Of a stretch of DNA of 64,000 nucleotides, positions 23,183-28,706 are shown piece by piece. Each line of letters starts with the position of its first letter. The stretch's first letter is position 1. Source of the stretch: Actinoplanes sp. L3-i22 (GTDB taxonomy: Bacteria; Actinomycetota; Actinomycetes; Mycobacteriales; Micromonosporaceae). A program made the translations under genes and the position numbers. Location of the stretch: positions 10,715,501-10,779,500 of the forward strand of contig NZ_AP024745.1 of the NCBI RefSeq assembly GCF_019704555.1. Direction: 5' to 3'. Under the pieces are notes generated by a model. The model made no database searches. It was not told where the DNA came from and saw only the letters and a list, made by a program, of their open reading frames with translations.

Positions 23183-24354
23183 GCGAGCCCGGGAGTCACG
23201 CCGATCGGATGGCCAGGGCGGCGCTCACCTGGCTGGCGGAGCCGGGGAATCGGGCGGTCTGGACGCTGGTTCAGCGGGTCGGGGCGCCGGCCGCGCTGGA
23301 GCGGCTGCTGGCCGGGAACCTGCCGGACAAGTGGCTGCAGGCGGCGATCTCGGCCCGGACCGCCGCCGGGGACGCCCGGCAGATGGCCGAGGAGGCGATG
23401 AGCCGGGCCGACGAGGTCGGTGCCCGGCTGGTGGTGCCGTCCGACCCGGAGTGGCCGGCCCGGGTGGACGCGCTGGCCAGGCTGGAGATCGACAGCGGCT
23501 CCCGGGTGAACCGGGACACCCGGCCGCCGCTCTGCTTCTGGGTGCGCGGCGAACTACGGCTCGGCGCGGCCCTGGACCGGTCGGTGGCGATCGTCGGGGC
23601 GCGGGCGTCGACCGGATACGGGACCTACGTGACCAACGATCTGGCGTACGGACTGGCCGAGAAGGGCTGGACCGTGGTGTCGGGCGGCGCCTGCGGGATC
23701 GACGCGGCGGCTCACCGGGCGGCGCTCGCCGCCGACGGCGTGACCGTGTCCGTGCTGGCCTGTGGCGTGGACCGGCCGTACCCCGTACTGAATGCGGAGA
23801 TGTTCGCCCAGATCGCCGAGCGCGGTCTGCTGATCAGTGAGTGGCCACCGGGCGCCGAGCCGCTGAGGCACCGCTTCCTGATCCGGAACCGGGTGATCGC
23901 GGCGGCCACCGCGGGCACGGTCGTGGTCGAGGCCGCGGCGCGCAGTGGCGCCACCCAGACGATGAGCCGGGTGCTGGCCCTGGACCGGCCCGCGATGGTC
24001 GTGCCGGGGCCGGTGACCTCGGCGATGTCGGTGGGCTGCCACGAGTTGTTGCGGAAACATCCGTACACGCGGCTGGTCACCTCGGTCGCCGACGTGCTGG
24101 AGGAGGTCGGCCGGATCGGCGAGTACCTGGAGCCGCCGCCGCGCGGGCGCGAGCGGGTCCGGGACCGGCTGGACGAGGAGTCGGCGCTGATCATGGAGGC
24201 GCTGCCCCGGCGCGGGGCGGTGAGCGCGGAGGAGATCGCGGCCGAGGCGCGGCTGGATCTGCGGACGGTGCTCCGGCGTCTGTCCCTGTTGGAGGCCGCG
24301 GGTTTGGTGGTGCGGACCGAGTCCGGAATCACGCTCGCGCGGCGGGGTGGTTAG
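23179..24354 (+). CDS. dprA: DNA-processing protein DprA
   Basis: 391 residues. An N-terminal helical (SAM-like) region is followed by the Rossmann-fold core: VAIVGARASTGYGTYVTNDLAYG, WTVVSGGACGIDAAAHRAAL, SVLACGVDRPYPVLN, RNRVIAAATAGTVVVEAAARSGA. The C-terminal winged helix begins about residue 325 (EESALIMEALPRRGAVS). DprA loads RecA onto incoming single-stranded DNA. The start overlaps the comM stop. After it the conserved synteny breaks: the accessory cassette follows instead of the sigma factor or xerC expected from relatives. Confidence 0.96.
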   Translation: MSEPGSHADRMARAALTWLAEPGNRAVWTLVQRVGAPAALERLLAGNLPDKWLQAAISARTAAGDARQMAEEAMSRADEVGARLVVPSDPEWPARVDALARLEIDSGSRVNRDTRPPLCFWVRGELRLGAALDRSVAIVGARASTGYGTYVTNDLAYGLAEKGWTVVSGGACGIDAAAHRAALAADGVTVSVLACGVDRPYPVLNAEMFAQIAERGLLISEWPPGAEPLRHRFLIRNRVIAAATAGTVVVEAAARSGATQTMSRVLALDRPAMVVPGPVTSAMSVGCHELLRKHPYTRLVTSVADVLEEVGRIGEYLEPPPRGRERVRDRLDEESALIMEALPRRGAVSAEEIAAEARLDLRTVLRRLSLLEAAGLVVRTESGITLARRGG

Positions 24355-24601: not shown

Positions 24602-24811
24602 TCAGTCCTCGGATTCATCCAGGTCACGACGGTGGACCTTCATCCAGGCCTCGACGTCCTCGGTCAGCCACACCTTGCCCTGAGCCAGATCGGCAGCCGG
24701 CTTGGGAAAGTCCGCACGGCTGGTGATCTGGTACGCCCGCTGACGGCTCACACCGCCCAGGCGGATACGGATCTCGTGTGCGCCCATGAGGCGGATCGGC
24801 TTCACTCCCAC
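24602..24811 (-). CDS. AlpA/MerR-type helix-turn-helix DNA-binding protein
   Basis: 69 residues. A single winged HTH reads MGAHEIRIRLGGVSRQRAYQ, then ITSRADFPKPAADLAQGKVWL and TEDVEAWMKVHR. This is the compact HTH_17/AlpA-like fold used by excisionases and small regulators of mobile elements. GTG 24811 is preceded by TACGGT (a TANNNT -10 box) 7 nt upstream, suggesting a leaderless mRNA; ATG 24787 inside the frame is the alternative. It is divergent from the Gly/Ala/Asp-rich gene and probably controls the shared 84-bp region. As I recall, similar small HTH genes accompany this cassette in other Micromonosporaceae. Confidence 0.88.
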   Translation of the reverse strand: MGVKPIRLMGAHEIRIRLGGVSRQRAYQITSRADFPKPAADLAQGKVWLTEDVEAWMKVHRRDLDESED

Positions 24812-24818
24812 ATGATCG

Positions 24819-24888
24819 ACCGTAGGCGCGGGACTATTAGGCGCTCAGCAGGTTGGCGGGAGACAGCTAGTCGTACGTTCACTAGGAT
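24819..24888. promoter_or_regulatory. Divergent leaderless promoters
   Basis: On the minus strand TACGGT (24824-24819) ends 7 nt before GTG 24811. On the plus strand TAGGAT (24883-24888) ends 7 nt before ATG 24896. Both fit actinobacterial -10 boxes that place +1 at the start codon. The motif CTAG occurs at 24867, 24882 and 24899, around the plus-strand promoter. Confidence 0.55.
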
Positions 24889-24895
24889 CTCCGCC

Positions 24896-25762
24896 ATGAC
24901 TAGACGTCGCATGACAACTGGACAGGTGCCTTTTTCCCCACGTCATCGTCGCGACTGGCGGACTCTGTGGCGCCGCTGCCGCTGCGGCCTGAAGGCCCCG
25001 TGCATCGACCGTTTGGTGCCGGCGCCGGCGAAGCCCTACCCGCCGGGGGACGCTCCGCAGCGCCGGGCCGTGGTCGCCCATTCCGACAATGCGTCTCCGG
25101 ACCGGCAAAAGCCCCGGCTGTCGGCGCCGCCGCGGGTGGAGGTTCCCCGGCAGCGCCAGGGCCCGGGCGTCCACAACGGGCGGCCGGTGTCCACCGAGCG
25201 CGAGACCGACGATCCGCATGACAACCATTCCCCCGGCCGGGACGGCGCCGCCCCCGCCCGGGACGGAGGCGACCCCGGCCAAGGCGGCGGCGACTCCGGC
25301 CAAGACGGGGGCAGCGGAGAGGCTGGTCCGCGGCCAGACGGGGGCAATGGAGAGATGGGTGGGCGGCCAAGCGAGGGCGGCGGAGATACAGGTGCGTGGG
25401 CGGACGCGGGCGGTGCGGAGGCCGGCGGTGCAGACGCGGGCCGTGCGGACGCGGGCGGTGCGGACGCGGGCCGTGCAGACGCGGGCGGTGCGGAGGCGGG
25501 CGCGGGCGGTGCGGAGGCGGGCGCGGGCGGTGCGGAGGCGGGCGCGGGCGGCGGGCAGCGCGCGGTTCGGGGAGGGCCTGGGGAGACAGCGGGCGGGCAG
25601 GACGGGCGGCCGGTGGGGCGAGCTTCGGTGCCGCGGCCGCGGACCAGGCACCTGGAGGCGAACGTGGGACGCGCCGGGAACCTGACGCCCGGGCAGCGGC
25701 ATCGGACGGTCTGCAACGACCCGTTCAAGAACCATTTGCACCGCCGTCGCCACCAGCGCTGA
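24896..25762 (+). CDS. Cys-motif protein with Gly/Ala/Asp-rich repeats (cassette protein 1)
   Basis: 288 residues in three parts. The basic N-terminus (residues 1-45) reads MTTGQVPFSPRHRRDWRTLW then RRCRCGLKAPCIDR, a CxCx5C pattern that could bind zinc. The middle (about 95-235) is low complexity, with repeats such as GADAGRADAGG and GAEAGAG encoded by 15-bp DNA units (25400-25555). The C-terminus (about 255-288) returns to conserved-looking text, NVGRAGNLTPGQRHRTVCND. I recall a family with this same head and tail in Micromonosporaceae but know no function. The start is leaderless-type. Codon use in the middle is dominated by repeat expansion. Confidence 0.75.
   Translation: MTRRRMTTGQVPFSPRHRRDWRTLWRRCRCGLKAPCIDRLVPAPAKPYPPGDAPQRRAVVAHSDNASPDRQKPRLSAPPRVEVPRQRQGPGVHNGRPVSTERETDDPHDNHSPGRDGAAPARDGGDPGQGGGDSGQDGGSGEAGPRPDGGNGEMGGRPSEGGGDTGAWADAGGAEAGGADAGRADAGGADAGRADAGGAEAGAGGAEAGAGGAEAGAGGGQRAVRGGPGETAGGQDGRPVGRASVPRPRTRHLEANVGRAGNLTPGQRHRTVCNDPFKNHLHRRRHQR
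25400..25555 (+). repeat. In-frame 15-bp repeats encoding Gly-Ala-Asp/Glu units
   Basis: Units like GCGGACGCGGGCGGT and GCGGAGGCGGGCGCG recur about ten times in frame. They encode alternating GGADA, GRADA and GAEAGAG blocks. Confidence 0.8.
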
Positions 25763-25843
25763 GCAGCACATCAAGGAACTTTGGCGCCGGGGGCCGACCG
25801 GCGCGTGAGGCGTAAGCGAAATTACTGAGGGGCACCGCCGGGC

Positions 25844-25930
25844 ATGAGCTCGCGGATCCGGGCCTTCGGAGGGAAGCCACGGACACGGGACGGCCACGAC
25901 GGGCCCGGCCGGATTCGGGGGCACCGTTGA
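25844..25930 (+). CDS. Possible 28-residue basic peptide coupled to the next gene
   Basis: ATG 25844 opens a frame of 28 codons rich in Arg and Gly (starts MSSRIRAFGG). Its TGA (25928-25930) overlaps the TTG start at 25927 as TTGA. GAGGGG lies 11 bp upstream of the ATG. It may be a real small cassette protein or a coupling leader for the TTG start. It is too short to support by composition alone. Confidence 0.35.
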   Translation: MSSRIRAFGGKPRTRDGHDGPGRIRGHR

Positions 25931-26157
25931 CCACCGCACAAGAAGCCGAACACCTGCACGACCGGCCGGATTGGAACTGCCGCATCTGCGGCGGCGCCTG
26001 GCCGTGCTCCGACGCGCGGGCCAAACTCCTGTACGAGTACCGCGCTTTCCCGTCGCTGCTGCGGATCTACATGTCGAATCAGATGTACGAGGCCCTTGAG
26101 GACATGGCCGTCGACGAGCCGGTGAACCTGTACGAACGCTTCCTGGCCTGGGCCTGA
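25927..26157 (+). CDS. Small Cys-rich protein (CxxCxxxxPC) of the accessory cassette (cassette protein 2)
   Basis: 76 residues from TTG 25927. After an acidic/His head (EAEHLHDRPDW) comes NCRICGGAWPCSDARAKLL, with three Cys in a CxxCx4C pattern that suggests a small metal site. The rest is helical: EYRAFPSLLRIYMSNQMYEA, then ending NLYERFLAWA. I recall similar proteins (sometimes misnamed flavin reductase) next to the same partners in Micromonosporaceae; nothing in the sequence supports flavin reduction. The TTG start is weak, but the frame and conserved ending are convincing. Confidence 0.8.
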   Translation: MTTAQEAEHLHDRPDWNCRICGGAWPCSDARAKLLYEYRAFPSLLRIYMSNQMYEALEDMAVDEPVNLYERFLAWA

Positions 26158-26199
26158 CAAAACCCTCCTGACCAGCCGCCATCCCTCCTGATCAGCCAC

Positions 26200-26263
26200 T
26201 GCCCAACCTCGACCGGGAGGCAGCCCTCGCACACGACGCGGGCAGCGCAGGCGAGGTTGGGCA
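26200..26263. terminator. 12-bp inverted repeat after the Cys-rich gene
   Basis: TGCCCAACCTCG (26200-26211) and CGAGGTTGGGCA (26252-26263) are perfect complements with a 40-nt loop, 42 bp after the stop. It lacks a T-run. It may be a terminator, or an inverted pair left by rearrangement. Confidence 0.45.
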
Positions 26264-26440
26264 CGGCCAGCGCAACGAGCACACGCACAGCCCGAGCGGC
26301 CACAGTTGGCGTCGGCGGCCGGGCCACGTTGGGCCGCGGCCTGGACTGGGCAGGGCCGAGCCTGGCGTGCGGCGGAGCCGGACATGCGGCGCGTTAGCTG
26401 AACCATCCGGGAGAGCTGTGCCGAGCGAACTGTGCCGGGC

Positions 26441-26500
26441 GGCCGGAGTCGGAGTCGGCTGACCGGAGTCGGAGTCGGCTGACCGGAGTCGGAGTCGGCT
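26441..26500. repeat. Three-copy 20-bp tandem repeat
   Basis: GACCGGAGTCGGAGTCGGCT is repeated at 26461 and 26481, with a one-base variant at 26441. Each unit holds two GGAGTC hexamers. The whole gap 26158-26710 (550 bp) has no supported gene. Confidence 0.9.
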
Positions 26501-26710
26501 GCCTGGAGCGGGGCTGGCCGGAGCGGCGGGGCTGGCTGGGGTGGAGTCCCGGTGGCTGAGGGTGGGCGAGGGTGGCGAGCGGGCGGCGGTCGCGCCCAGC
26601 AGTCGCGTTGGACCGGCCTGGCAAAACCGTCGCCCGCTCTTCCGTCCCGGGGTGGCTGGGCCGCTGCGGGGCGGTGGGTCCATCATAGTTTCATTGGGCT
26701 GTAGGTACAA

Positions 26711-26739
26711 CGTGACGGATCATCGTGGTCACGTAAAAT
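26711..26739 (+). promoter_or_regulatory. Leaderless promoter and likely operator of the GntR gene
   Basis: TAAAAT (26734-26739) ends 7 nt before ATG 26747. The perfect dyad CGTGAC (26711-26716) / GTCACG (26728-26733) lies just upstream, overlapping the -35 position and abutting the -10. This is a natural site for self-repression by the GntR protein. Confidence 0.6.
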
Positions 26740-26746
26740 ACTTGCC

Positions 26747-27151
26747 ATGATCGATCATTCGGCGGACCGGGCGGTCTTTCGACAGCTTGCTGACCTGCTG
26801 CGGGATCGTATCCAGTCCGGCGAGTTGGGGCCGGGTGAGCCGCTGCCCAGTGAGCTGCGGCTGGCTCAGGACTATGGGATCAGCCGGACCACGGTGCGCC
26901 AGGCGATCGGGCAGCTGCGGACCGAGGGGCTCGTCACGGTCGACCGGCCACGTGGGACATTCGTCCGGGTGCCGGAGCCGGTGCAGGTCATCGCCCTGGC
27001 CCGCGGCGAGCGGGCCGGCGCCCGGATGCCGACCGACGCCGAGCGACGGAAATACCGCCTCGGCGAGGGCGTGCCGGTCCTGGTGGTCACCACGCAGGAG
27101 GGTGTGGAGACGGTCCACCCCGCCGACCGCGTCCAGCTCACCCGCCCCTGA
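26747..27151 (+). CDS. Short GntR-family transcriptional regulator
   Basis: 134 residues. The N-terminal GntR winged helix covers residues 5-75: FRQLADLLRDRIQSGELGPG, LPSELRLAQDYGISRTTVRQ, LRTEGLVTVDRPRGTFV. The C-terminus is only about 60 residues (PVQVIALARGERAGARMPTD, then GEGVPVLVVTTQEG), much shorter than a UTRA or FadR ligand domain. It may be a minimal sensor or act without ligand. Its own promoter contains a dyad, so autoregulation is likely. It closes the AlpA-like/CxC/CxxC cassette. KorSA-type GntR repressors of integrative elements are a functional parallel, not a proven relation. Confidence 0.9.
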   Translation: MIDHSADRAVFRQLADLLRDRIQSGELGPGEPLPSELRLAQDYGISRTTVRQAIGQLRTEGLVTVDRPRGTFVRVPEPVQVIALARGERAGARMPTDAERRKYRLGEGVPVLVVTTQEGVETVHPADRVQLTRP

Positions 27152-27335
27152 CCAACCAAGCCGCATTCCAGCACCATAGGGACGGGGTACGACAAGAACG
27201 CCCGCCCGCGCAATAGACGCGCGCAACGCCAGTGTCGCCCGAGCCAATCGGAGCGCGGATGCGCCCGTCGGGCGGCGGATCGCTCAGATGGTGGCCGCGC
27301 GCTGGCAAGAGCCAGACTGTTCGGATGACGGCCGG

Positions 27336-27401
27336 GCGCCGGGAAAAGCTCGACGACTCGGATGAAGGCAGAGCGCCGGGAAAAGCTCGACGACTCGGAT
27401 G
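27336..27401. repeat. 29-bp perfect direct repeat (37-bp period)
   Basis: 27336-27364 and 27373-27401 are identical over 29 bp, starting GCGCCGGGAAAAGCTCGACG. A partial third copy (TCGGATGACGGC...) precedes them at 27321. It lies in the 337-bp gene-free gap between the GntR gene and xerC and could be an iteron-like binding site. Confidence 0.9.
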
Positions 27402-27488
27402 GCGGCTGAACGCAGCGCCGATATCGGCTGGGCGCGGGGCACACTGAACATCGTGGACGCCTATCGCCGCCGGCCGAGAACGAAGCGT

Positions 27489-28706
27489 GTGACCGAGCTG
27501 CACGAAGCGCTGCCCCCGGCCCTGCGCGACGCCGTGGACCGGTTCGGGCATCACCTCGCGGTCGTCGAGGACCGCTCGGCGCACACCGTCCGGGCCTACC
27601 TGGGCGACGTCGTCTCGCTGCTCGCGCACGCCGCCGACCAGGGCTGCACGACAGTGGACGACCTGGACCTCACGGTGCTCCGCGGATGGCTGGCGGCCCG
27701 GCTGGGCGAGGGCGCCGCCCGTACGTCGCAGGCCCGTCGTGCCGCAGCGGCCCGGACCTTCACCGCATGGTCGCACCGCATCGGCCTCGCCCCCGCCGAC
27801 GCCGGCGCCGGTCTGGCCAGCCCGCGCGCCCACCGCGACCTACCCCACGTCCTCCGCGCCGACCAGGCCGCCGCCCTGGTCACCGCCCCCGGCTCCCGCC
27901 CGGCCCCAAGAAACGCCCCCGAACCCGGCACCGCCTCAGAAAACGCACCAAAAAGCGCCCTAAAAGATGCCCTGGAAGGCGCCCTGGAAGACGACCAAGC
28001 GCCCGACACCACCTACCGGGCCGACGAAAGCGATCACCCGGACCAGGCCGCGGACAACGCGGAAGCGATCCGGGACCGAGCAGTACTGGAACTCCTCTAC
28101 GCGACCGGAATCCGCGTCAGCGAGCTCTGCAACCTCGACCAGTCCGATATCGATCACACTCGGCAGGTGGTCCGGGTCTTCGGCAAGGGCGGCAAGGAGC
28201 GCGCCGTCCCCTACGGCCACCCGGCCCGCGACGCCCTCGCCACCTGGCTCCGCCTCGGCCGCCCGGCACTGGCCACCGCGAACAACGCAGCCCGCCCAGC
28301 GTCTGCCACCGCGAACAACGCGAACAACGCAGCCCGCCCGACGCCAGCCACCGCCAACAGCGCAGCCCGCCCAGCATCGGCCGCCGCAAACCGCGTGGCC
28401 CGCCCGAACCAGGGAAAGGCGAAGAAAGCCGGAGACCCCCTGTTCCTAGGACTAAAGGGCGCCCGCCTACAACCCACCGTCGTCCGCCGAATAGTCTCCG
28501 CCGCCGCCCAGCTCGCCGGCCTCCCCCACACCAAACCCCACGACCTGCGCCACTCCGCCGCCACCCACCTGCTCGACGGCGGCGCCGACCTGCGCGCCGT
28601 CCAGGAACTGCTCGGCCACAGCTCCCTGTCGAGCACCCAGATCTACACTCACGTCTCCACCGAGCGGCTGCGTGCCGCTTTCAATCAGGCCCATCCACGG
28701 GCCTGA
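27489..28706 (+). CDS. xerC: XerC-type tyrosine recombinase with two low-complexity insertions
   Basis: 405 residues from GTG 27489 (GTG 27453 possible), about 100 longer than usual. The N-terminal core-binding domain is normal (RFGHHLAVVEDRSAHTVRAY). All catalytic residues are present: Arg in YATGIRVSELCNL, Lys in GKGGKERAVPYGH, HxxR in HDLRHSAATH, His in LGHSSLSSTQIYTH with the nucleophile Tyr. Two unusual inserts occur. One of about 60 acidic/Ala residues (nt 27888-28065) precedes the catalytic Arg. One of about 55 residues made of 11-residue ATANNAARPAS-type repeats (nt 28273-28406) lies between Lys and HxxR. It resolves chromosome dimers at dif if still active. Confidence 0.9.
   Translation: MTELHEALPPALRDAVDRFGHHLAVVEDRSAHTVRAYLGDVVSLLAHAADQGCTTVDDLDLTVLRGWLAARLGEGAARTSQARRAAAARTFTAWSHRIGLAPADAGAGLASPRAHRDLPHVLRADQAAALVTAPGSRPAPRNAPEPGTASENAPKSALKDALEGALEDDQAPDTTYRADESDHPDQAADNAEAIRDRAVLELLYATGIRVSELCNLDQSDIDHTRQVVRVFGKGGKERAVPYGHPARDALATWLRLGRPALATANNAARPASATANNANNAARPTPATANSAARPASAAANRVARPNQGKAKKAGDPLFLGLKGARLQPTVVRRIVSAAAQLAGLPHTKPHDLRHSAATHLLDGGADLRAVQELLGHSSLSSTQIYTHVSTERLRAAFNQAHPRA
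28273..28406 (+). repeat. About 33-bp in-frame repeats inside xerC
   Basis: Four degenerate units of about 33 bp beginning CCACCGCGAACAACGCAGCC encode Ala/Asn/Arg/Pro-rich blocks inserted in the catalytic domain. Confidence 0.8.

Follow-up and report, generated by a model that had tools for sequence, protein, structure and literature searches.

A near-invariant AlpA-like regulator facing a candidate metal-binding protein pair between dprA and xerC in Actinoplanes

In Streptomyces venezuelae, paralogues of bldB adjoin paralogues of whiJ, and five of the ten are also near abaA; iosA occupies the same kind of place as abaA, is leaderless, and requires for its activation WhiJ9, which binds the iosA-whiJ9 intergenic region (PMC10294661, in the part of the paper available). 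Fourteen pairs of XRE and DUF397 genes are described as pleiotropic regulators, none acting as a type II toxin-antitoxin system, although such pairs were formerly proposed to be one (PMC10364602, available portion), and DUF397/DUF5753 genes lie near some graspetide clusters (PMC13097080, likewise in the portion available). Here we compare these systems with an interval in a 64,000-nt stretch (the window) of the 12.0-Mb, single-contig genome of Actinoplanes sp. L3-i22, lying between the end of dprA at 24354 and the start of xerC at 27399.

The interval holds four reading frames, all confirmed, encoding a small regulator (AlpA69), two cysteine-motif proteins (CRC and C76) and a GntR-type regulator, and no other genes were called there. 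In the reading we prefer, held with about even confidence, AlpA69 is a switch at dprA-xerC with a candidate three-box operator, and CRC and C76 are its output, a predicted metal-binding pair. That reading draws on sequence evidence of several kinds: the layout, the constraint on AlpA69, the boxes, a His/Cys site in C76 (HCCC), the pairing of C76 with proteins bearing three cysteines (tri-Cys), including by fusion, and the divergent placement of C76 elsewhere opposite XRE-DUF5753 and DUF397 genes. An initial annotation of this DNA had proposed four coding units with no metabolic enzyme among them, and each was confirmed frame by frame; no enzyme, ribosomally synthesized and post-translationally modified peptide (RiPP) precursor or maturase was called in the interval. 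The features are as follows, in window coordinates.

24602..24811, minus strand: AlpA69, predicted winged helix-turn-helix (wHTH)/AlpA-like regulator of 69 aa, GTG start
24812..24895, no strand assigned: predicted shared divergent AlpA69/CRC promoter region of 84 bp, conserved across 22 aligned loci
24896..25762, plus strand: CRC, tri-Cys protein of 288 aa, ATG start
25231..25551, plus strand: tandem DNA repeats with 15-, 21-, 33- and 45-bp units, coding the variable middle of CRC
25927..26157, plus strand: C76, protein of 76 aa with H-x8-C-x2-C-x5-C, TTG start
26747..27151, plus strand: GntR, 134 aa, PF00392 plus a short C-terminal part, a neighbour outside the repeated module

Like the whiJ-bldB-abaA/iosA loci, C76 loci occur in many copies per genome with a helix-turn-helix (HTH) regulator facing a small gene, and at about half of the C76 sites away from dprA-xerC (non-canonical sites) XRE-DUF5753 and DUF397 genes stand in the corresponding place. 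The slot itself differs: it holds C76 and a tri-Cys protein rather than the HATPase AbaA or IosA, IosA being compared by description. At the window locus an HTH regulator does lie divergent from a small output gene, and the divergent message is predicted to be near-leaderless, as iosA is leaderless. The regulator there is AlpA69 instead, with no XRE-type HTH carrying DUF5753, and no match to DUF397 (PF04149) was found within 2.3 kb of the locus. Since these two features are missing, the window locus is better described as working like a WhiJ/BldB-type locus than as a member of that class. By position, the C76 module would be the Micromonosporaceae counterpart of abaA/iosA, with AlpA69 replacing the WhiJ/BldB pair at dprA-xerC.

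Conservation was assessed in 23 canonical loci (L039-L058, L067, L073 and L085), meaning those at dprA-xerC. The order dprA-AlpA-C76-xerC is kept in 23/23, a figure to be read as one from a selected sample because the loci were picked from C76 matches; of these loci 22 have CRC and 16 have GntR, and the rule for a divergent AlpA is satisfied in 21. AlpA69 has a median identity of 95.5% (89.2-98.5) in the 22 other loci. In a family sample of 200 genomes, all 36 from the genus have an AlpA69 relative; 35 of the matches reach E <= 3.2e-34, and the one in G047 covers 45 residues. With the window copy as reference for both amino-acid identity and the ratio of non-synonymous to synonymous differences (pN/pS), AlpA69 has the lowest median pN/pS among the genes tested (0.037), followed by GntR (0.15), the CRC head (0.32), tsf (0.33), xerC (0.36), dprA (0.40) and C76 (0.47). 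The genes are thus under purifying selection, and, judged from sequence, Actinoplanes genomes carry the locus as a fixed feature. The description 'accessory cassette' in the initial annotation does not fit an order constant in all the selected loci and a near-invariant AlpA.

For comparison we hand-picked, from 81 genomes, 20 loci downstream of dprA in 14 other Micromonosporaceae genera. C76 and AlpA were missing from all 20; xerC was called in 18 (not in L174 or L183), either adjoining dprA or beyond unrelated genes. This absence, together with the occurrence of PF05930 AlpA proteins in prophages (the AlpA69 match to that family being sub-threshold), is what could be expected of the regulatory core of a decayed integrative element, in which an excisionase-type AlpA gene and GntR are left with cargo, as the initial annotation had suggested. 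We consider that origin very improbable. Constant gene order and an AlpA69 pN/pS of 0.037 are the opposite of decay, no tRNA gene was found in the window, and no integrase, relaxase, FtsK-type, transfer or replication gene was among those called between dprA and xerC, where only the genes described above were found.

The label 'AlpA-like' draws on two matches. Against the PDB, AlpA69 gave one weak match, to 8c3t, named as AlpA family (E 0.014), and its match to Pfam PF05930 (E 0.061, 13.6 bits) lies under the cut-off of 21, so that the gathering score is not reached. It resembles the regulators of that family (PF05930; 8c3t) in its small size (69 aa) and in an HTH region aligned over residues 16-57, and differs from them in its sub-cut-off score, its non-prophage context and its standing as a near-invariant chromosomal gene of the genus.

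The intergenic region between AlpA69 and CRC was aligned for 22 of the 23 canonical loci, L040 being left out because its AlpA frame is short. Palindrome-like CWNNNWG boxes occur there at 15-bp spacing, up to three per region.

24832..24842, plus strand: box 1, GACTATTAGGC (GACTATTAGTC in most relatives), CWNNNWG core in 22/22
24847..24857, plus strand: box 2, core CAGGTTG (ATCAAGTTGAT in some relatives), 15 bp from box 1
24862..24872, plus strand: box 3, GACAGCTAGTC, 15 bp from box 2
24883..24888, plus strand: predicted -10 element TAGGAT of the CRC promoter, 7 nt before the ATG, TAnnnT kept in the alignment

The complete triple is found in 14/22 regions and in 94/20,000 random 170-bp windows from the same loci, a comparison to be read with the fact that the triple pattern was defined after viewing the alignment; the box, tri-Cys and 2.3-kb rules were all fixed post hoc, on data already inspected. 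A strict two-box pattern occurs in 15/24 genomes of the genus, at one site each, and all 15 sites lie between AlpA and the CRC head; it was found in 0/16 other-family genomes and not at all in reversed controls. We predict that the boxes and TAnnnT are operator and promoter elements, and that the CRC message is near-leaderless.

C76 carries CRICGGAWPC, which is CxxCx5C, one residue longer than the CxxCx4C first assigned, and the motif also includes a conserved His that precedes the first Cys by nine residues. In an alignment of 103 homologues (drawn from the 120 listed of 240 found, some, mostly longer ones, being omitted), the His is kept in 103/103, the three Cys in 102, 103 and 103, and the W-P ahead of the third Cys in all 103. 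The HCCC site was likewise present in 64/64 copies of a first alignment, the motif filter having removed none. Four conserved His/Cys ligands are a feature of zinc-binding proteins. No Pfam or NCBIfam family matches C76, and no PDB structure resembles it at a meaningful score; the predicted fold (predicted local distance difference test, pLDDT, 84.3) has short beta pieces in the Cys-bearing part followed by three helices. Titles and abstract openings, mostly from the non-subscription literature, on WhiJ, DUF397/DUF5753, the AmcA cyclophane, FxLD and Micromonosporaceae held no recognised account of C76 or of the locus.

Relatives of C76 were found in 60/60 same-genus genomes (own genome included), at 1-17 copies each by single-sequence search, and weakly in 1/40 other genomes of the order. 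A profile built from the 64 copies detected the family in 138/200 family genomes and 25/44 genera, with a per-genome maximum of at least 29. Across 396 phylum genomes it gave clear matches only in the own genome and in a second member of that family, and weak, partial ones in two further genomes. In the genomes searched, C76 is nearly confined to Micromonosporaceae, and the earlier claims that the proteins are lineage-specific, present several times per genome and conserved in their Cys residues are borne out.

CRC has a conserved head with CRCGLKAPC (CxCx5C), Gly/Ala/Asp repeats and a tail conserved in closer relatives, and no Pfam or NCBIfam family matches it. Its partnership with C76 was examined at 81 non-canonical C76 copies, picked from the match lists of C76 searches and not independent, since syntenic and same-genome copies are included. 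A tri-Cys open reading frame (ORF) lies directly upstream of C76 at 22/81 of them, as against 56/1625 control genes, and the strict CxCG form at 17/81 against 13/1625. Under the same narrow rule 10/23 canonical copies qualify, most of the others failing because the CRC linker is long. At the three loci read closely (L082, L083 and L092), the tri-Cys ORF overlaps C76 by a few bases. There is also a natural fusion, in which 10/13 proteins join a CSCGCxWYPC-type head to C76; one such gene in the own genome (L168, 8806-9261) has genes for allantoicase, an amidohydrolase and malate synthase around it, and L096 is alike by sequence. A partnership of the two Cys proteins, as first proposed, is upheld by the upstream ORFs and by the fusion.

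Two further arrangements were seen around C76. Short proteins with WCxxCG after a hydrophobic stretch lie upstream of it in L063, L071, L077 and L089, and those of L063 and L077 alone have a third Cys; the proteins are possibly a membrane-anchored variant of the partner. In L083, L084, L066 and L091, CRC-C76 is followed by members of one recurrent protein cluster (with a JmjC_2 domain in L083), and L083 also has a 158-aa protein and an APH-like kinase.

Divergent from the 81 non-canonical copies are XRE plus DUF397 genes at 33, DUF397 only at 5, XRE only at 4 and AlpA at 1, which puts an XRE match opposite 37 copies and a DUF397 match at 38. The XRE search model was seeded from a single DUF5753 protein, and family assignment was confirmed on one representative (PF19054, PF13560 and PF04149). 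In four genomes, 13/31 C76 genes have a divergent DUF397 gene within 2.3 kb, against 0.10 expected, and 15/79 DUF397 genes are so placed relative to C76 (one of the seven copies in genome G010 was left out of this count). A further 20 loci anchored on AlpA (L109-L128), excluded from the C76 counts, have a divergent C76 at 9. Downstream genes at regulator-facing sites are varied, in a survey that left out eight syntenic loci and proteins of more than 900 aa. Two points go beyond the initial annotation: the conservation of the promoter region that AlpA69 and CRC share, and the presence of WhiJ/BldB-type genes opposite about half of the C76 copies elsewhere. The repeated co-occurrence that it described holds for C76 and a tri-Cys protein, as well as for an HTH gene divergent from C76, and fails for GntR.

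Small divergent genes with an HTH partner also recall a toxin-antitoxin-like locus, in which the HTH protein would be the antitoxin and the small Cys proteins toxins, and the former type II proposal for XRE-DUF397 pairs (PMC10364602, available portion) lends this some weight. We find it improbable: none of the fourteen pairs in that portion behaves in this way, the regulator is encoded divergently from the Cys genes, not in one operon with them, and, in the loci examined, the genus has retained the arrangement.

The strongest rival reading takes C76 to be mainly an accessory metal-binding docking domain of peptide-modifying and other enzymes, the dprA-xerC copy being an orphan of that sort and not the output of a switch; we rate it as rather doubtful. 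In L063, C76 precedes an FxLD methyltransferase (TIGR04364/PCMT) as the N-terminal part of one protein, and an FxLD precursor (TIGR04363) and a LanB-type dehydratase (Lant_dehydr) are encoded next to it; L062, L090 and L094 resemble L063 by sequence, with C76 fused to or before FxLD-system methyltransferases (families were scanned in L063 only). C76 is possibly an unreported component of the FxLD lanthipeptide RiPP class. It is also N-terminal to a flavin reductase domain in L154, the likely origin of the name 'flavin reductase' that some sources give to members of the family, and to a Methyltransf_19 domain in L093. In the cyclophane RiPP cluster of L148 (7548-9380), it lies between the AmcA precursor and the AmcB radical-SAM maturase, with a divergent 408-aa protein that has a sub-threshold NsdA-family match; L149, L150 and L142 are similar (families scanned in L148 only). 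The window locus differs from these FxLD and AmcA/AmcB clusters in that no gene called in the dprA-xerC interval codes for a precursor or a maturase. Other evidence runs against the docking-domain reading: at dprA-xerC and at many other sites C76 stands alone as a small protein, no enzyme was called between dprA and xerC, and HTH or DUF397 genes face 43/81 copies while the genes downstream vary.

In the preferred reading, AlpA69 would bind the three boxes of the 84-bp promoter region and likely set the levels of CRC and C76. The two proteins would form one metal-binding complex that may act as an adaptor; its client would be a regulator or, elsewhere, an enzyme of peptide modification. A broader proposal, which we advance tentatively, is that C76 and its tri-Cys partner are an undescribed two-subunit metal adaptor specific to Micromonosporaceae, with shared or paired HCCC and CCC sites. 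Switches of the WhiJ/BldB and AlpA types would have it as an interchangeable output, and fusions would have turned it into a docking domain for the maturation of lanthipeptides and cyclophanes; the copy at dprA-xerC would be its genus-fixed developmental form in Actinoplanes.

Several observations weigh against the switch reading. The full box triple is missing from 8/22 intergenic regions, only box 1 being universal, the strict two-box pattern is missing from 9/24 genus genomes, and other AlpA-like genes have similar words upstream without the three-box 15-bp arrangement. The AlpA69 alignment is partial in two canonical loci (L040 and L073), where the gene may be broken. C76 evolves rapidly outside its core (pN/pS 0.47), and the low-confidence model of the fusion (pLDDT 59.5) gives no structural support for contact of the two Cys sites. 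No tested regulator is divergent from 38/81 non-canonical copies, and 9 of the 43 regulator-facing copies belong to one syntenic locus (L059 and relatives). The occurrence of C76 in or fused to enzymes at several loci fits an enzyme adaptor equally.

GntR matches PF00392 at 74 bits (cut-off 27). It resembles GntR/HutC regulators (PF00392; YvoA, DasR) in this clearly matched N-terminal wHTH, and differs in having some 60 residues after it, with no match to a Pfam effector domain. The initial annotation counted it as part of the module, and all four genes could belong to a single unit in which GntR senses a ligand on behalf of the Cys proteins; its identity of 75-95.5% in the 15 other canonical loci holding it, and its low pN/pS, are in keeping with that. 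Its distribution makes the four-gene unit unlikely: GntR is missing from 7/23 canonical loci and nearly all repeated modules (present at 2/37 non-canonical loci, and 0 called in 40 further C76-anchored loci), and the outgroup locus L169 has a 68%-identical GntR at dprA-xerC but no module. L173 has a longer GntR that is 45% identical. GntR is likely a separately conserved neighbour and not a module member.

A perfect 20-bp tandem repeat in three copies (26443-26501) separates C76 and GntR, and a 37-bp repeat in 2.5 copies (27321-27413, 87% matching) lies at the start of xerC. Within xerC, 33- and 42-bp repeats (28259-28412) code an Ala/Asn-rich insert; the xerC frame here is 435 aa, and those called in other genera are shorter.

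Since AlpA69 and the two Cys proteins are encoded around one conserved DNA region, and relatives of C76 recur in the family beside developmental-type regulators and peptide-antibiotic-type genes, the locus is likely a genetic switch not studied before, whose output would be of a new type. WhiJ/BldB loci are numerous and poorly understood actinobacterial regulators, whose studied outputs, in the portions of the literature available, are abaA and iosA of Streptomyces. C76 is a second, unrelated candidate output family, with many copies per genome and some of these in RiPP clusters, and would merit a domain name for many proteins now called hypothetical or flavin reductase. With a near-invariant regulator and a defined candidate operator, the targets of the proposed switch are directly testable in Actinoplanes.

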